Assembly: GCA_018829465.1 (NCBI GenBank)
Contig: JAHJTN010000012.1
Location: 248,001-312,000 of the forward strand
Reading direction: 5' to 3'
DNA: 64,000 bases
Source: Bacteroidota bacterium
GTDB lineage: Bacteria; Bacteroidota; Bacteroidia; Flavobacteriales; Flavobacteriaceae
The notes below the pieces were generated by a model, which searched no databases, was not told the DNA's origin, and saw nothing but the letters and a program-made list of their open reading frames with translations. The number at the start of each line of letters is the position of its first letter. Position 1 is the stretch's first letter. The translations under genes and the position numbers were made by a program. Positions 24,188 through 57,453 of the stretch are shown here, in pieces.

Positions 24188-25414
24188 ATGAAAAGCGCAC
24201 ATTGTATTTATTTTATCTTGTCATTATTATTGTTACAAGCCTGTGGAATCAATAAACTTAAGACTTTTGAATTTCCCCAACCCGAAGATACGCGAGATAA
24301 ACCCATTCAAACCCAAACCAAAAAAACCTACGCGCTAAACAATGTCTTTGCAGACAACGAGTTTGACGGTGCAAGACTCAACAATTTTGAGCGTGTGAAT
24401 GACTCCACCTACGCCGTTACCATACTTCCCGAGAACGAACCCATCAACAGCAGCCCACATTATGCATTCCGCATTTGGAGCCAAAAGCCGGACACGATTT
24501 TTATTCAACTCCGCTATCCGACCAGCAAGCACCGATATTGGCCCAAACTGAGCCCAGACGGTCAACATTGGCAACCGATAGACAGTACCGATTTTACCCT
24601 CTTGAAAAATGGGGAAATCGCCCAATTGCGGGTGGGTATTCATCAAAAACCGTTGTGGATTGCCGCCCAAGAATTGCACAATAGCACCGCCGCCAAAGAG
24701 TGGGCTTCCGCGCTTGCAACAGACACACGCGTTCATATAGATTTGGCCGGAAAGAGTAAGCTGGGACGCTCTTTGATGGTGCTAGACATCTATGAAGAAT
24801 CACCAAATGACAAAGATTTAATTGTCATACTGAGTAGGCAACACCCGCCCGAGGTGACCGGCTATTTGGCTATGCAAGCCTTTGTTGAAGAGCTCTTGCA
24901 AAACAACAAACTCGCTTCCGATTTTATCAAAAAATATCGCATCTTAATTTTTCCAATGGTAAATCCTGATGGGGTCGATTTGGGCCATTGGCGTCACAAT
25001 GCAGGTGGAGTTGATCTCAACAGAGACTGGGCTTTTTACAGGCAACCCGAAGTGAACCAAGTAGTCAACTTCATTGTAAACACGGCTAATAGAGACAAAA
25101 ATAAGGTCATTCTCGGACTCGATTTTCACTCCACCCAAGAAGATTTGTATTATACTATTGCTGACGAGCACCACTCTATCTTGTATCCTTTCAAAGATTA
25201 TTGGTTGCAGAGCATAGACCTCGCACTACCCGGTTATACACCCGATGACCATCCCGATCCGTTCGGGCAACCCGTTACCAAAGCTTGGTTTTTTAAACAA
25301 TTTCGAGCAGATGCAGTCATTTATGAGATAGGCGATGAAACACCCCGCAGTTTTATCAAAACCAAAGCGGAAACAGCTGCCCGTGAGATGATAAAATTAC
25401 TCATCCTGAGATGA
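24188..25414 (+). CDS. M14 family zinc carboxypeptidase lipoprotein
   Basis: A 408-residue lipoprotein (signal MKSAHCIYFILSLLLLQAC, lipobox Cys19). A beta-rich N-terminal domain (about 30-180) precedes the M14 domain. Zinc ligands are visible as RQHPPE (HxxE) and LDFHSTQED; NPDGVDLGHWRHN and GVDLNRDW give the substrate-binding Asn-Arg, and the C-terminal EIGDETPR supplies the likely catalytic Glu. It should trim C-terminal residues from peptides in the periplasm or at the surface. Single gene after a terminator, before a repeat tract. Confidence 0.88.
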   Translation: MKSAHCIYFILSLLLLQACGINKLKTFEFPQPEDTRDKPIQTQTKKTYALNNVFADNEFDGARLNNFERVNDSTYAVTILPENEPINSSPHYAFRIWSQKPDTIFIQLRYPTSKHRYWPKLSPDGQHWQPIDSTDFTLLKNGEIAQLRVGIHQKPLWIAAQELHNSTAAKEWASALATDTRVHIDLAGKSKLGRSLMVLDIYEESPNDKDLIVILSRQHPPEVTGYLAMQAFVEELLQNNKLASDFIKKYRILIFPMVNPDGVDLGHWRHNAGGVDLNRDWAFYRQPEVNQVVNFIVNTANRDKNKVILGLDFHSTQEDLYYTIADEHHSILYPFKDYWLQSIDLALPGYTPDDHPDPFGQPVTKAWFFKQFRADAVIYEIGDETPRSFIKTKAETAAREMIKLLILR

Positions 25415-25445
25415 AAATATAAGAACTCTAAAAGATAATATATAG

Positions 25446-25669
25446 ATGAAACGCCCATGTAAGAATATTATCACACAGGTGGATGATTATATTCAATTAA
25501 ACATCAATTACTTGAAAAATATAAACAGATAAAAATGCCAATCCACCGATGCTGTTACAGTTTGGGAGAGGGTATTTGTTTTAGCAATTAAGGATAAAAC
25601 CTCACAGGTTTTTAAAACCTGTGAGGTTTAAAAGACATTACAGGGCCACGATGAGTTAGGGCGTTTCAT
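25446..25669. repeat. GAAACGCCC element, diverged and interrupted copy
   Basis: Left arm ATGAAACGCCCATGTAA at 25446 and right arm TTAGGGCGTTTCATG ending at 25670 are complementary, but lie 200 bases apart instead of about 40. The extra DNA includes unrelated sequence and the palindrome at 25597-25629, so this looks like a copy split by later insertion. Confidence 0.75.
25597..25629. repeat. CTCACAGG palindrome (REP-like), copy 1
   Basis: AAACCTCACAGGTTTT and AAAACCTGTGAGGTTT form a perfect 16-bp inverted repeat with one central base. The same palindrome flanks the transposase gene in the trp operon. No T-run follows, so it is not a simple terminator. Confidence 0.9.
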
Positions 25670-25744
25670 GTCTATACAGATTGCAATCGAAGTATGACCG
25701 ATAAAAACACTTGTATTGAGCGAAGTCGAAATAAATAAAATAAA

Positions 25745-25924
25745 CAGATGAAACGCCCATGTAAAAATTTTGCACACAGGAGTATGATTATCCTAGGGCG
25801 TTCCATCTGACCAATAAGAATAAATAAAATAAACAGATGAAACGCCCATGTAAAAATTTTGCACACAGGGGCATGATTATCCTAGGGCGTTCCATCTGAC
25901 CGATAAAACAATAAATATAAACAG
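25745..25924. repeat. Two tandem GAAACGCCC elements leading into a start codon
   Basis: Units start at 25745 and 25834 (period 89) and the first 12 bases of a third unit (CAGATGAAACGC at 25922) carry the start codon of the next gene. Each unit reads CAGATGAAACGCCCATG, a 30-base AT-rich middle, TAGGGCGTTCCATCTGAC, then an A-rich tail GATAAAA...ATAAA. The outer arms CAGATgAAACGCCC / GGGCGTTcCATCTG can pair. Confidence 0.92.
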
Positions 25925-27256
25925 ATGAAACGCTTTTTAAAAAGATTGAGCTTGGTGTTGCTTATAGGCTTGCTCATAGCCATCGTGTATCAATATCCCA
26001 AGCTAAATATACTGACCGGCTATTCCGCTAAAAACATGAATTCGGCTGTTTTTCTGGCCCATAGAAATTTTGCTTTTGCAGACAGTACAGACAATAACTT
26101 TTTCCCGGTGAGTTTGGCTCACGATCAAATGAATTTTGAAACAAAACACACCAAGGCAAGTGTTTGGGGACTTATGAAAAGAGAAGCTTTCTACAGAGAC
26201 GGCGTGGGCAGCGTTTTACTGATAGACAAAGAGGATGAAAACAGGTCTTTTCTAAGGCCTGACCGAAAACCTGTTGAAGTTGCCCTGCCATATCCTTACG
26301 GAGAATTGCCCCAAAAAGACACCCTTTTCCCCGAAATCGATTATTCAAAATTAGAAAATGCCGTAGCAGATGCTTTTCAACCCCAAAATAAGACCCGTGT
26401 GGTTTTGATCATCTACAAAGATCAAATAATTGCCGAGGCATACGCGCCGGGCTTCGATAAAAATTCAAAAATATTGGGTTGGTCTATGACCAAAAGTCTT
26501 ACCGCCACCATCTATGGTATTTTGCAAAGCCAAGGCAAACTGTCTGTACACAACAAGGTTGAAATAGAAGTTTGGCAAAACGACAACCGGTCAAACATTA
26601 CACTGGACAACCTGCTCCGCATGAGCAGCGGTTTGGCTTGGGACGAAAACTATTTTACCATGTCCGATGTGACGCGTATGCTGTATTTAGAGAAACACAT
26701 GTCGCAGGCACAAATCCGCAAGGCACAAAACCATTTGCCTGCTACTTTTTGGAACTATTCCTCCGGAACTTCAAATTTACTGTCGGGTTATCTCAAAAAA
26801 TATTTTGCAACCGAACAACAATATATGGATTTTTGGTACACCGATTTTATCGATAAAATTGGGATGCATTCCACCGTTATAGAAACCGATCTTTCCAACA
26901 ATTATGTAGGTTCGTCCTATGCGTGGGCAACACCACGCGATTGGGCAAAATTTGGTCTGCTGTATTTGCATCGTGGCCGTTGGAATGGTGAACAAATTTT
27001 TGACCCGGAATGGGTCGATTACGTGACGAAACCAACGGAACATTCAGACGGTCAATACGGTGCTCACTTTTGGTTGAACGCGGGTAAAACTTACCCCGAT
27101 GCGCCACCAGATTTGTATTCCGCCAACGGTTTTCAAGGCCAGCATGTTTTTGTGATTCCTTCCAAAGACATGGTAATTGTCCGCATGGGATTGGCTGAAT
27201 ATCCGAATTTTGACACCAACGCCTTTCTAGGCAAAATCACCGCTATCATTCAATAA
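25925..27256 (+). CDS. Serine hydrolase (class C beta-lactamase-like)
   Basis: A 443-residue protein anchored by an N-terminal span (about residues 10-25, LVLLIGLLIAIVYQYP). The penicillin-binding/beta-lactamase fold is shown by GWSMTKSLTA with the SxxK pair (Ser-Met-Thr-Lys) and the second motif YSSGTSN (Tyr-x-Ser-like). Closest functional class would be periplasmic esterases or D-aminopeptidases of the AmpC group; true beta-lactamase activity is not implied. Its ATG and MKR codons lie in the end of the 89-bp repeat just upstream. Confidence 0.85.
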   Translation: MKRFLKRLSLVLLIGLLIAIVYQYPKLNILTGYSAKNMNSAVFLAHRNFAFADSTDNNFFPVSLAHDQMNFETKHTKASVWGLMKREAFYRDGVGSVLLIDKEDENRSFLRPDRKPVEVALPYPYGELPQKDTLFPEIDYSKLENAVADAFQPQNKTRVVLIIYKDQIIAEAYAPGFDKNSKILGWSMTKSLTATIYGILQSQGKLSVHNKVEIEVWQNDNRSNITLDNLLRMSSGLAWDENYFTMSDVTRMLYLEKHMSQAQIRKAQNHLPATFWNYSSGTSNLLSGYLKKYFATEQQYMDFWYTDFIDKIGMHSTVIETDLSNNYVGSSYAWATPRDWAKFGLLYLHRGRWNGEQIFDPEWVDYVTKPTEHSDGQYGAHFWLNAGKTYPDAPPDLYSANGFQGQHVFVIPSKDMVIVRMGLAEYPNFDTNAFLGKITAIIQ

Positions 27257-37233: not shown

Positions 37234-37293
37234 ATGAAATGCCCACTGCAAATATTTCAATGCAAACCGAAAATGATAAATTGGGCATTACAT
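37234..37293. repeat. GAAATGCCC variant of the 89-bp element
   Basis: Left arm ATGAAATGCCCA and right arm TTGGGCATTACAT. Relative to the standard copy both arms carry matching changes (C to T on the left, G to A on the right), so the pairing is kept. Confidence 0.8.
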
Positions 37294-37344
37294 TCCTGTG
37301 CTGAGCGCAGTCGAAGCATGACCGATAAAAACAAATAATATAAA

Positions 37345-37436
37345 CAGATGAAACGCCCATGTAAAAATTTTGCACCCAGGAGTATGATTATCCTAGTGCG
37401 TTCCATCTGACAGATAAAAATAAATAACATAAACAG
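37345..37436. repeat. GAAACGCCC element ending at the trpD start codon
   Basis: CAGATGAAACGCCCATG ... CCATCTGACAGATAAAAA, then an A-rich tail and CAGATGAAACAG, in which ATG is the trpD start. The distance from one CAGATGAAAC to the next is 89, as in the tandem copies upstream of the serine hydrolase. The right arm has one mismatch (AGTGCGTT). Confidence 0.9.
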
Positions 37437-40644: not shown

Positions 40645-40733
40645 ATGAAACGCCCATGTAAAAATTTTGCTCACAGGAGTATGATTATCCTAGGGCGTTA
40701 CATCTGACCGATAAAAATAAATAATAAAAACAG
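40645..40733. repeat. GAAACGCCC element ending at the trpF start codon
   Basis: ATGAAACGCCCATG ... TAGGGCGTTACATCTGACC, then an A-rich tail and CAGATGAAACTA containing the trpF start. Length and internal order match the trpD and serine hydrolase copies. Confidence 0.9.
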
Positions 40734-41547: not shown

Positions 41548-42099
41548 ATGAAATATCAGCCTTTAGAATCCGGACATCTCTATCATATTTTTAATAAAGG
41601 TAATAACAGAGAAACGATATTTAAAGAACCTAAAAACTATATTTATTTTCTTTCTTTGATAAAAAAATATTTGCTTGATGATATGGAATTATTCGCATAT
41701 TGTTTAATGCCCAATCACTTTCATTTTGTTCTAAAAATAAATGAATCTTCTAAAAATCCCTCGCGACTGCTATCGAATCTATTTAACGCCTATTCAAAGT
41801 CTATTAATAAGATGTATAATCGAGAAGGGAGTCTTTTTAAAGACAGGTTTTCCCGTAAGAAAGTTGAAGATGAAATATATTTAAAAAAACTCATAATTTA
41901 TGTGCATACCAACCCTTTACACCATGGATTTGATGAACCATTTAACCAGTATAAGTATTCATCTTATAAAAGTTATATTGAAAATGATGCATATTTAGTG
42001 AAATTTGAAAACATAAAAGATTTGTTTTTCGACTTGGATAATTTTGAATATTGCCATCAGGAAAAAGAAATGCAACAATCGTATCAATTTGAAGAATAA
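41548..42099 (+). CDS. REP-associated tyrosine transposase (Y1/IS200-like)
   Basis: A 183-residue single-strand DNA transposase of the RAYT group. It has the HUH motif in YCLMPNHFHFVL (His57, His59) and the downstream helix with the likely nucleophile, NLFNAYSKSINKMY (Tyr82), followed by GSLFKDRFSRKKV, all typical. AT-rich compared with the trp genes. It has no IS ends of its own and sits between clusters of CTCACAGG palindromes, the arrangement expected for a RAYT with its REPs. It is inserted between trpF and trpB in the same direction. Confidence 0.88.
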   Translation: MKYQPLESGHLYHIFNKGNNRETIFKEPKNYIYFLSLIKKYLLDDMELFAYCLMPNHFHFVLKINESSKNPSRLLSNLFNAYSKSINKMYNREGSLFKDRFSRKKVEDEIYLKKLIIYVHTNPLHHGFDEPFNQYKYSSYKSYIENDAYLVKFENIKDLFFDLDNFEYCHQEKEMQQSYQFEE

Positions 42100-46737: not shown

Positions 46738-46865
46738 CATTCGCGTCCTTTTACCTACCCCGAAGGTTCTTTAAATACGCATCTGACTTTGGATTGTTTT
46801 TGCGTTGGGATGTTTTTGCCCCCAATACACAGCGAGTCCTTATTAAAAAATTACTTTTGTTCCCG

Positions 46866-46912
46866 ATGAAAACACTTGTATTGAGCGCAGTCGAAATAAA
46901 TAAAATAAACAC
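46866..46912. repeat. TTGAGCGCAGTCGAA module with A-rich tail before a start codon
   Basis: AAAACACTTGTATTGAGCGCAGTCGAAATAAATAAAATAAACAC, then the ATG-AAA of the bioF-like gene. The same string occurs at about 25707-25744 in front of a GAAACGCCC element, so this is the right end of that repeat family without its palindromic part. Confidence 0.8.
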
Positions 46913-57340: not shown

Positions 57341-57453
57341 ATGAAACGCCCATATAAAAATTTTCCACAAAGGAGCATGATGAGTTGGGGTGTTCCATGC
57401 CTGTGCTGAGCGCAGTCGAAGCATGAACGCTTAAAATCAATAAAAATAAACAC
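57341..57453. repeat. GAAACGCCC element, G-U variant, ending at the adaptor start codon
   Basis: ATGAAACGCCCATATAAAAA ... TTGGGGTGTTCCATGCC, then CTGTGCTGAGCGCAGTCGAA, and tail AATCAATAAAAATAAACAC followed by ATG-AAA. In this copy the right arm has GTGTT in place of GCGTT, turning one pair into a G-U wobble. Confidence 0.85.

Follow-up and report, generated by a model that had tools for sequence, protein, structure and literature searches.

Within the 64,000-nucleotide stretch of Bacteroidota DNA that we analysed (the window), five genes begin exactly where a short repeat ends. The right end of the repeat directly precedes the ATG of genes at positions 25925, 37437, 40734, 46913 and 57454, and all five proteins begin with Met-Lys, as had been proposed in an earlier reading made from the letters alone (the sequence-only reading). 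The gene names given there fit the Pfam matches, namely a beta-lactamase-type serine hydrolase, trpD (Glycos_transf_3), trpF (PRAI), a bioF-like aminotransferase (Aminotran_1_2) and a CusB-type adaptor (HlyD_D23), with the identities of trpD and trpF resting on these matches. The features described here all lie on the plus strand and were read from the sequence, full copies of the element also being delimited by parsing. The serine hydrolase gene follows a tandem pair in which copy 1 (89 nt, 25748..25836) abuts the ATGAAA of copy 2 (88 nt, 25837..25924), which stands directly before the start codon. Copies of 89 nt also directly precede trpD (37348..37436) and trpF (40645..40733), and both of these loci were compared with their orthologues. 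The trpD copy has an upstream partner, a diverged element (37234..37347) with left end ATGAAATGCCCA, right arm TGGGCATTACAT, a hairpin module and, by eye, a compensated stem. A palindrome lies about 20 nt upstream of the insertion point of the trpF copy, and two related genomes have palindromes of the same kind at this place. Directly before the CusB-type gene is a copy of 113 nt with a hairpin module (57341..57453), and directly before the bioF-like gene a tail-only remnant (...TATTGAGCGCAGTCGAAATAAATAAAATAAACAC, 46863..46912), so that the description of the repeats as elements of about 89 bp holds at three of the five genes. Upstream of the tandem pair lies a composite repeat of about 300 nt (25446..25747), which has the same left end, an element-type tail and a ACCTCACAGG palindrome inside. 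Repeats of this composite build, reaching about 300 nt and carrying the element's left end, recur elsewhere in the genome (L038 from 7672; L079 from 4147), all three with an unrelated middle plus the ACCTCACAGG palindrome.

The observation that a repeat of about 90 bases stands before start codons is therefore confirmed, and the phenomenon is larger than was claimed. Its outline needs correction: the element runs from ATGAAACGCCC to a tail ending in TAAACA[G/C], both junctions carry ATGAAA, and arrays occur in which every copy has an ATGAAA of its own. The left end (ATGAAACGCCC) and the right end (...AATATAAACA[G/C]) do not form terminal inverted repeats, the inverted arm lying about 30 nt inside the right end. 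The 14-mer singled out by the sequence-only reading has 12 matches in the window at up to two mismatches, three of them exact, where 0.41 are expected and no shuffle reaches 12; six of the 12 are on the minus strand, and several of these six are right arms of the same copies.

A 24-base core pattern matches 123 times in the 3.07-Mb genome to which the window belongs (backward control, 3), and 0-2 times in each of 59 other genomes, where controls likewise give 0-2. Copies were parsed around 100 of the 123 matches, in 61 stretches including the window (1,026,532 bases), a sample of about a third of the genome that was chosen around pattern matches and is non-random. Parsing yielded 115 copies with a right arm and a right junction, or 114 after one minus-strand reading in the window was dropped. 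Lengths in these 114 range from 86 to 189 nt, with 75 copies of 88-92 nt, 30 of 111-116 nt and nine others, and a GTGCTGAGCGCAGTCGAAGCATG-type hairpin module is present in 36/114 by a motif test. The 76 copies of 86-92 nt give the consensus ATGAAACGCCCATGTAAAAATTTTGCACACAGGAGCATGATTATCCTAGGGCGTTCCATCTGACCGATAAAAAACAATAAATATAAACAG with a mean identity of 0.89. Arrays are common: 36/114 copies are directly followed by another element, 29 by one of the same type and seven by a related or more diverged one. Array neighbours are at least 0.96 identical in 6/29 pairs, and all such pairs average 0.83 against 0.75 for random pairs. A second element type (ATGAAACGAGCCATGCTAAAAAGT...GCGAGTTCCAT...AACAG) has the same junctions and often stands directly behind the main type (L033, L040, L042, L056, L073, L077). 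Taken together, more than 100 copies of the roughly 90-base sequence probably form one family of short, non-coding, non-autonomous mobile elements, the mobility being read from the comparison of genomes presented below.

The right end of the element is tied to a fixed hexamer. When the end was placed from the tail alone (113/115 copies have a tail with at most three mismatches), the next six bases were ATGAAA in 106/115 copies; this placement is free of the bias of our earlier junction finder, which took only NTGAA sites. Without the 36 copies that another element follows, 78 terminal copies remain. In 70 of them the right end meets the start codon of an open reading frame (ORF) that is 60 codons or longer, and in eight it does not. 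By the calls of our own simple gene finder, 54 of the 70 end at a called start, 12 are in frame with a called gene for which another start was chosen, and four precede uncalled ORFs. The hexamer at these gene starts is ATGAAA in 69/70 and ATGAAT in one, compared to ATGAAA at 87/710 other ATG genes from the same fetched stretches (Fisher p 1e-53). Gene starts are also enriched among ATGAAA sites as such: element-bearing sites divide 70:8 between starts and intergenic positions, and other sites outside gene interiors 168:187 (odds ratio 9.7, p 6e-13; 66:12, odds ratio 6.1, p 6e-10 when the four uncalled ORFs are moved). No copy has its midpoint inside a called gene (0/115), and the next called gene lies on the same strand for 72/79 terminal copies (the dropped copy counted) and on the opposite strand for seven. 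These counts strongly support the suggestion of the sequence-only reading that the repeat could target ATGAAA sites; that reading had named, as evidence against itself, a majority of copies away from start codons or in random antisense orientation, and the majority is at ORF starts and on the same strand. On the antisense strand, the same 106/115 copies follow TTTCAT, which corresponds to insertion 3' of a fixed short target. ATGAAA stands at both junctions and is nearly always the same hexamer, so that a target duplication and a sequence borne by the element look alike. The proteins encoded downstream, inspected by eye for 60 element-bearing genes, are varied in function. One copy (L046, about 14834) ends at an ORF of 26 codons whose start region has a GC-rich inverted repeat (CCGCCTCAGTTAGTGAGGCGG); this ORF is perhaps a leader peptide with an attenuator.

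Comparison with two genomes of the same genus suggests that the element was inserted into leaders that already existed. Each of these genomes has one match to the core pattern, with three mismatches (control, 0). Orthologues were sought with one joined query for 28 likely-conserved genes among the 60, and 25 had at least one. A comparison of orthologous loci had been called for in the sequence-only reading; the 25 genes gave 45 leaders of up to 200 nt in the two relatives, and neither the element's core nor its right arm was found in any of them. At ftsQ, the sequence left of the element is colinear with the relative up to the relative's own ATGAAA, and likewise at glpD, queA, mgl and trpF. 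Left flanks are more similar to the corresponding orthologous leader than to mismatched ones (p 0.008, 45 comparisons), the true match ranking first of 28 in 8/45 cases (queA, mgl and glpD in both relatives; trpF and ftsQ in one), and element tails show no excess match to the same leaders (p 0.38, 45 comparisons). Many flank pairs are unmatched, in part because the flank is the tail of another element; for this reason no flank match is expected, or seen, at leuB, thrC and trpD. At serC and mlaE the flanks look native, yet the orthologous leaders do not match. For 22 genes whose orthologues could be anchored at residue 1, ATGAAA opens the gene in at least one relative in 15 cases and only ATGAAG in two, and neither is present in five (fumC, ech, blaI, lrp and lolA). 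The hexamer therefore usually predates the insertion, and the five exceptions mean that the target may not always pre-exist. Given these comparisons, we consider it likely that the element is an insertion between the native leader and the ATGAAA of a host gene.

Two kinds of internal pairing are conserved in the element. The first is an imperfect stem between the left arm ATGAAACGCCC (25748..25758 in copy 1) and the right arm GGGCGTTCCAT (25796-25806), supported by pair counts over 114 copies and by single-strand folds, and kept by paired changes. Pair 8 is G-C in 62 copies, A-T in 26, G-T in 17 and A-C in seven. Pair 4 is a fixed A-C mismatch in 107/114 copies, which is a G-T on the antisense strand. 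Related element types of the same genome have, by eye, compensated versions of the stem such as ATGAAACATCCA/TGGATGTTCCAT. The second involves a guide-like hexamer, CATCTG (25804..25809 in copy 1), which is the complement of the CAGATG found at the right junction (25834-25839). In 70/78 copies that lack the hairpin module, the triplet following CAT is complementary to the tip, the final three bases ahead of the right ATG; shuffling gives 52.4 such copies on average and 61 at most. The combination is CTG/CAG in 60 copies and GTG/CAC in ten, with two mixed combinations in one copy each. The three tip-complementary bases together with ATGGAA can pair with the tip plus TTTCAT with one G-T, which would give this stretch a putative guide role. 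Where pairs depart from Watson-Crick, a G-U on the sense strand is the commoner outcome: guide pair 2 has 19 G-T and no A-C, stem pair 8 has 17 to seven, and stem pair 2 has 20 G-U-keeping changes to one, although this is the same base change as at guide pair 2. These departures therefore speak for a hairpin at the RNA level too, two of the three positions being the same change. The single-strand folds of two copies have z-scores of -4.0 as sense DNA, -5.1 as antisense DNA and -5.7 as RNA.

The element does not encode a conserved protein. The first copies contain an ORF of 20 codons, and a conserved small protein was considered and rejected because of frame-shifting indels and of lengths that spread over all three frames (45/36/33 of 114). 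The small ORF opened by the left ATG varies by copy (15, 20, 22, 26, 28 codons and others), and its frame closes before the gene in 109/114 copies, with shuffles giving much the same (mean 103, maximum 110). Stops in all three frames are present in 109/114 copies, which exceeds the shuffled expectation (mean 86, maximum 100).

To our knowledge, Bacteroidota hardly use Shine-Dalgarno pairing. Scored with a leader matrix built from 710 native genes (native mean 0.85), element tails reach a mean of 3.16 (n=70, median at the 89th percentile), the displaced left flanks average 1.67 (n=38), and sequence lying farther upstream averages -0.94; since the tails closely resemble one another, the score should not be read as 70 independent observations. 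The predicted unpaired probability of the ATG behind the tail is 0.28, compared to 0.45 in 200 native genes, and that of the element's left ATG is 0.15; over the -6..+6 stretch no difference is predicted (0.53 vs native 0.50, p 0.39). The proposal in the sequence-only reading of a mobile translation-initiation cassette stands in part. The tails score as strong leaders, and we infer that the tail acts as the leader of the host gene, but the more-paired ATG predicted by the folding model argues against a plain benefit as a better leader. A further point against the cassette comes from the other Bacteroidota treated next, in that more than half of the readable terminal copies in Alkalitalea stand at sites with no gene start.

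Related elements occur in other Bacteroidota. An exact 22-mer is found at eight loci in Bacteroidales/Bacteroidia metagenome-assembled genomes (MAGs), Paludibacter, Alkalitalea saponilacus, Niabella and a Draconibacterium MAG, and the 14-mer ATGAAACGCCCATG, at up to one mismatch, has 3-31 matches in each of eight further genomes (controls 0-1). A strict pattern run over 395 genomes of the phylum was found in our genome and one other, and most genomes therefore lack the form searched. In the copies from elsewhere the interior is variable and the left end recurs, and by eye many have a hairpin after a second ATG and an A-rich tail. The fetched loci hold 73 distinct copies, of which the 65 not cut by a contig end are testable; 35/65 reach, within 60-190 nt, an ATGAAA that opens an ORF of at least 60 codons, compared to 0/65 on the reverse strand and 6/65 at positions 600 nt downstream. 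The arrangement is absent in two of the genomes, G455 (0/4) and G453 (0/2). In G455 (L207, L215, L223, L231, L272), left ends are followed by long degenerate repeats (GGTTGGAAGTTGGAGG and similar) with no clear right end. In Alkalitalea, 20 matches leave 14 readable terminal copies once three array-internal copies, one followed by an element-like sequence (L236), one with an unclear junction (L238) and one that is coding-like (L246) are set aside. Read by eye from listed NTGA[AG] sites, the tip meets ATGAA- in 13 of the 14 and ATGAGA in one; six of the 14 open a long ORF and eight stand at sites without a gene start. Since Alkalitalea tips often abut ATGAA- with no gene, the target would be the hexamer, with a start codon not required. 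Tip and guide, which were read by eye outside our own genome (automated guide extraction was unreliable for G454 and G451), are complementary there too, in other letters: TTG/CAA in Alkalitalea, TCG/CGA in Niabella and CTA/TAG in 2/4 copies of one MAG, with a TCG/CGG combination in Alkalitalea that keeps a G-U. The match is imperfect in 2/4 copies of G450 (CTA/CAG), in G351 (ATG/CAG and TTG/CAG) and in one Alkalitalea copy.

The reading that best joins these observations, and that we hold to be the probable one on the strength of the sequences, is that the repeats are short non-autonomous mobile elements that insert immediately 5' of ATGAAA and swap leaders. Exact junctions, ATGAAA specificity, absence at orthologous sites, orientation, the stem and the tip/guide complementarity are established at the level of sequence. 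Movement would be in trans and would depend on an enzyme that works on folded single strands; an HUH mode like that of IS200/IS605 is our best guess for it, though a doubtful one. Insertion would occur immediately 5' of ATGAAA or, seen on the other strand, 3' of TTTCAT. The native leader would then run into the element's own left ATGAAAC, opening a short upstream ORF (uORF) that is nearly always closed inside the element, and the A-rich tail (...AATATAAACA[G/C]) would take over as leader for the host gene. Every insertion adds a further ATGAAA, in front of which later copies could insert, giving arrays. Copies would survive at start codons through the tail working as a leader. A broader version, possible but in our estimate short of an even chance, is a selfish family spread across Bacteroidota that targets the ATGAAA of Met-Lys genes, with translation signals swapped, stops in all frames serving as insulation, and a built-in guide. 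In this broader version the host leader would be spent on the element's dummy start, the tail would be the replacement leader, and the guide, complementary to tip and target, would direct a strand-transfer enzyme; the fixed A-C mismatch of the stem (107/114 copies) could prevent the element from presenting its own target on the opposite strand.

The main rival is an origin as a regulatory leader. A cis-acting RNA, in which the uORF, the stem and the CATCTG/CAGATG hairpin sequester the start codon, may have spread through its regulation by translational coupling. The tip/guide complementarity in 70/78 module-free copies would be expected of such an RNA, as would the retention of sense-strand G-U (19:0 at guide pair 2, 17:7 at stem pair 8), an ATG more paired than in native genes and the RNA fold of two copies (z -5.7). 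However, the end and frame of the uORF are not conserved, the 60 downstream proteins inspected by eye are varied, 8/14 readable terminal Alkalitalea copies have no gene start at the junction, the fixed A-C at stem pair 4 is a G-T on the antisense strand, and a scan of window positions 25300-26000 gave no Rfam family at the gathering score. We regard the regulatory origin as unlikely.

We judge it similarly improbable that the element is a REP-like repeat mobilised by the transposase of the window itself. The single Y1 (IS200-like/RAYT) gene found in the genome lies in the window between trpF and the next trp gene (41548..42099); from profile matches and inspection of its flanks, it is a candidate helper at most. 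Its best NCBIfam match is REP_Tyr_transpos, at 64.5 bits and below the cut-off of 80. A link to this gene would fit the hairpins and the guide-like stretch of the element, and the way it inserts, beside a fixed stretch of a few bases and with no terminal inverted repeats, is reminiscent of single-strand Y1 transposition. The RAYT gene is, however, flanked on both sides not by the element but by other palindromes of the ACCTCACAGG kind (ACCTCACAGGTTTT..AAAACCTGTGAGGT), a kind that stands before trpF in both relatives as well, where the element is absent. Y1 genes are present in all ten genomes tried, element-poor ones included, so that Y1 number does not follow copy number, and 12 Y1 loci in other genomes (of 25 matches), inspected with about 1.5 kb of flank, are without a convincing element end; one left-end match with three mismatches near a Y1 locus (L197) was taken for chance. 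On the inferred leading strand lie 25/43 elements and 21/68 element-free ATGAAA genes (p 0.006, a post hoc comparison with a noisy local skew), an excess that replication-linked insertion could give, but against all genes the difference is not significant (277/599, p 0.15, with the same noisy skew).

Other sources of a mobilising enzyme were sought as well. IS110 recombinases (PF02371) have no match in our genome, and the element has no match in viral contigs, plasmids or phages. Among the matches listed in the 1.03 Mb, a search for split halves, itself noisy, gave no autonomous copy and no parent insertion sequence with the same ends; 38/142 tails lack a counted copy and are, by eye, other element types, array members, flanks of counted copies or native leaders. 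Reverse transcriptases have two matches in the genome, on contigs C25 and C43. Contig C25 (L189), which has a reverse-transcriptase ORF of 583 aa, is by eye GC-rich unlike the rest of the genome and is possibly foreign or contaminating.

Spread without a dedicated enzyme, through recombination between leaders at ATGAAAC, whether homologous or microhomology-based, appears quite unlikely to us. The ATGAAA common to both junctions would provide the homology, and the near-identical array neighbours (6/29 pairs) are what unequal exchange predicts; occupation of 70 gene-start sites, a conserved stem, tip/guide pairing and families in other orders would not be expected from 6-7 bp of microhomology. 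Least probable is non-specific insertion followed by selection, with copies lost everywhere but at start codons, where the tail would work by chance: the harm of insertion inside genes and the 70/78 terminal copies at gene starts agree with it, but selection for a start codon accounts for the ATG and not for the AAA (69/70 vs 87/710), and the Alkalitalea tips meet ATGAA- in 13/14 cases by eye, gene or no gene.

Rickettsia palindromic elements are small palindromic repeats that enter genes without destroying them, standing in frame inside the coding sequence; the element described here differs in being inserted in front of the start codon. Like miniature inverted-repeat transposable elements (MITEs) and other small repeats, as these are outlined in the available portions of two reviews (PMC2229807, PMC10969869), it is short, non-autonomous, present in many copies, mostly intergenic and hairpin-forming. 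In size and number it is what a MITE should be, non-autonomous, shorter than 200 bp and repeated (114 copies, the longest of 189 nt, with no conserved frame). ERIC, Correia/NEMIS, RUP and MITEs typically have terminal inverted repeats and target duplications, according to the same portions of these reviews (PMC2229807, PMC10969869), whereas our element has no terminal inverted repeats at its junctions and ATGAAA is the sequence common to both ends. The term 'start codon' is absent from the main text of both reviews. With REP sequences and their RAYT (TnpAREP) transposases, as far as the available parts of PMC6006769 and PMC3733652 describe them, the element shares dispersed imperfect palindromes, a guide-like stretch and a Y1 gene in the genome. 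It is unlike them in its longer unit of about 90 nt, in its position directly at start codons and in that the RAYT here has a different palindrome; neither a GTAG nor a CGTC tag is in the consensus of 76 copies on either strand. The ends of IS200/IS605 elements are similar in inserting beside a fixed short sequence, in their hairpins and in a guide pairing with the flank (PMC6006769, in the part available), but here no transposase is inside or linked, and the pairing also covers the element's own last three bases. The nearest published phenomenon that we found is the TAACTGA direct repeats, present in some Bacteroidetes among others, which likewise end right before start codons by a mechanism described as not known (PMC4679880, in the part available). 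Those are tandem 7-mers, in contrast to an element of 90 nt with defined ends and a target hexamer, and TAACTGA is absent from the consensus of 76 copies on either strand. A literature search, with most subscription journals outside its coverage, found no description of the element. What would be new among small non-autonomous mobile repeats is the combination of an ATGAAA target with the swap of leaders.

If this reading is true, dozens of genes, many of them core genes (trpD and trpF and, by our own reading of the proteins, leuB, pheT, queA, ftsQ, serC and others), would in this one organism be translated from a leader brought by a mobile element. The copies would then amount to a natural genome-wide experiment on what translation initiation needs in Bacteroidota. 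They would also point to an undiscovered mobilising enzyme with ATGAAA specificity, and would mean that a parasite can enter an essential position without loss of the gene.
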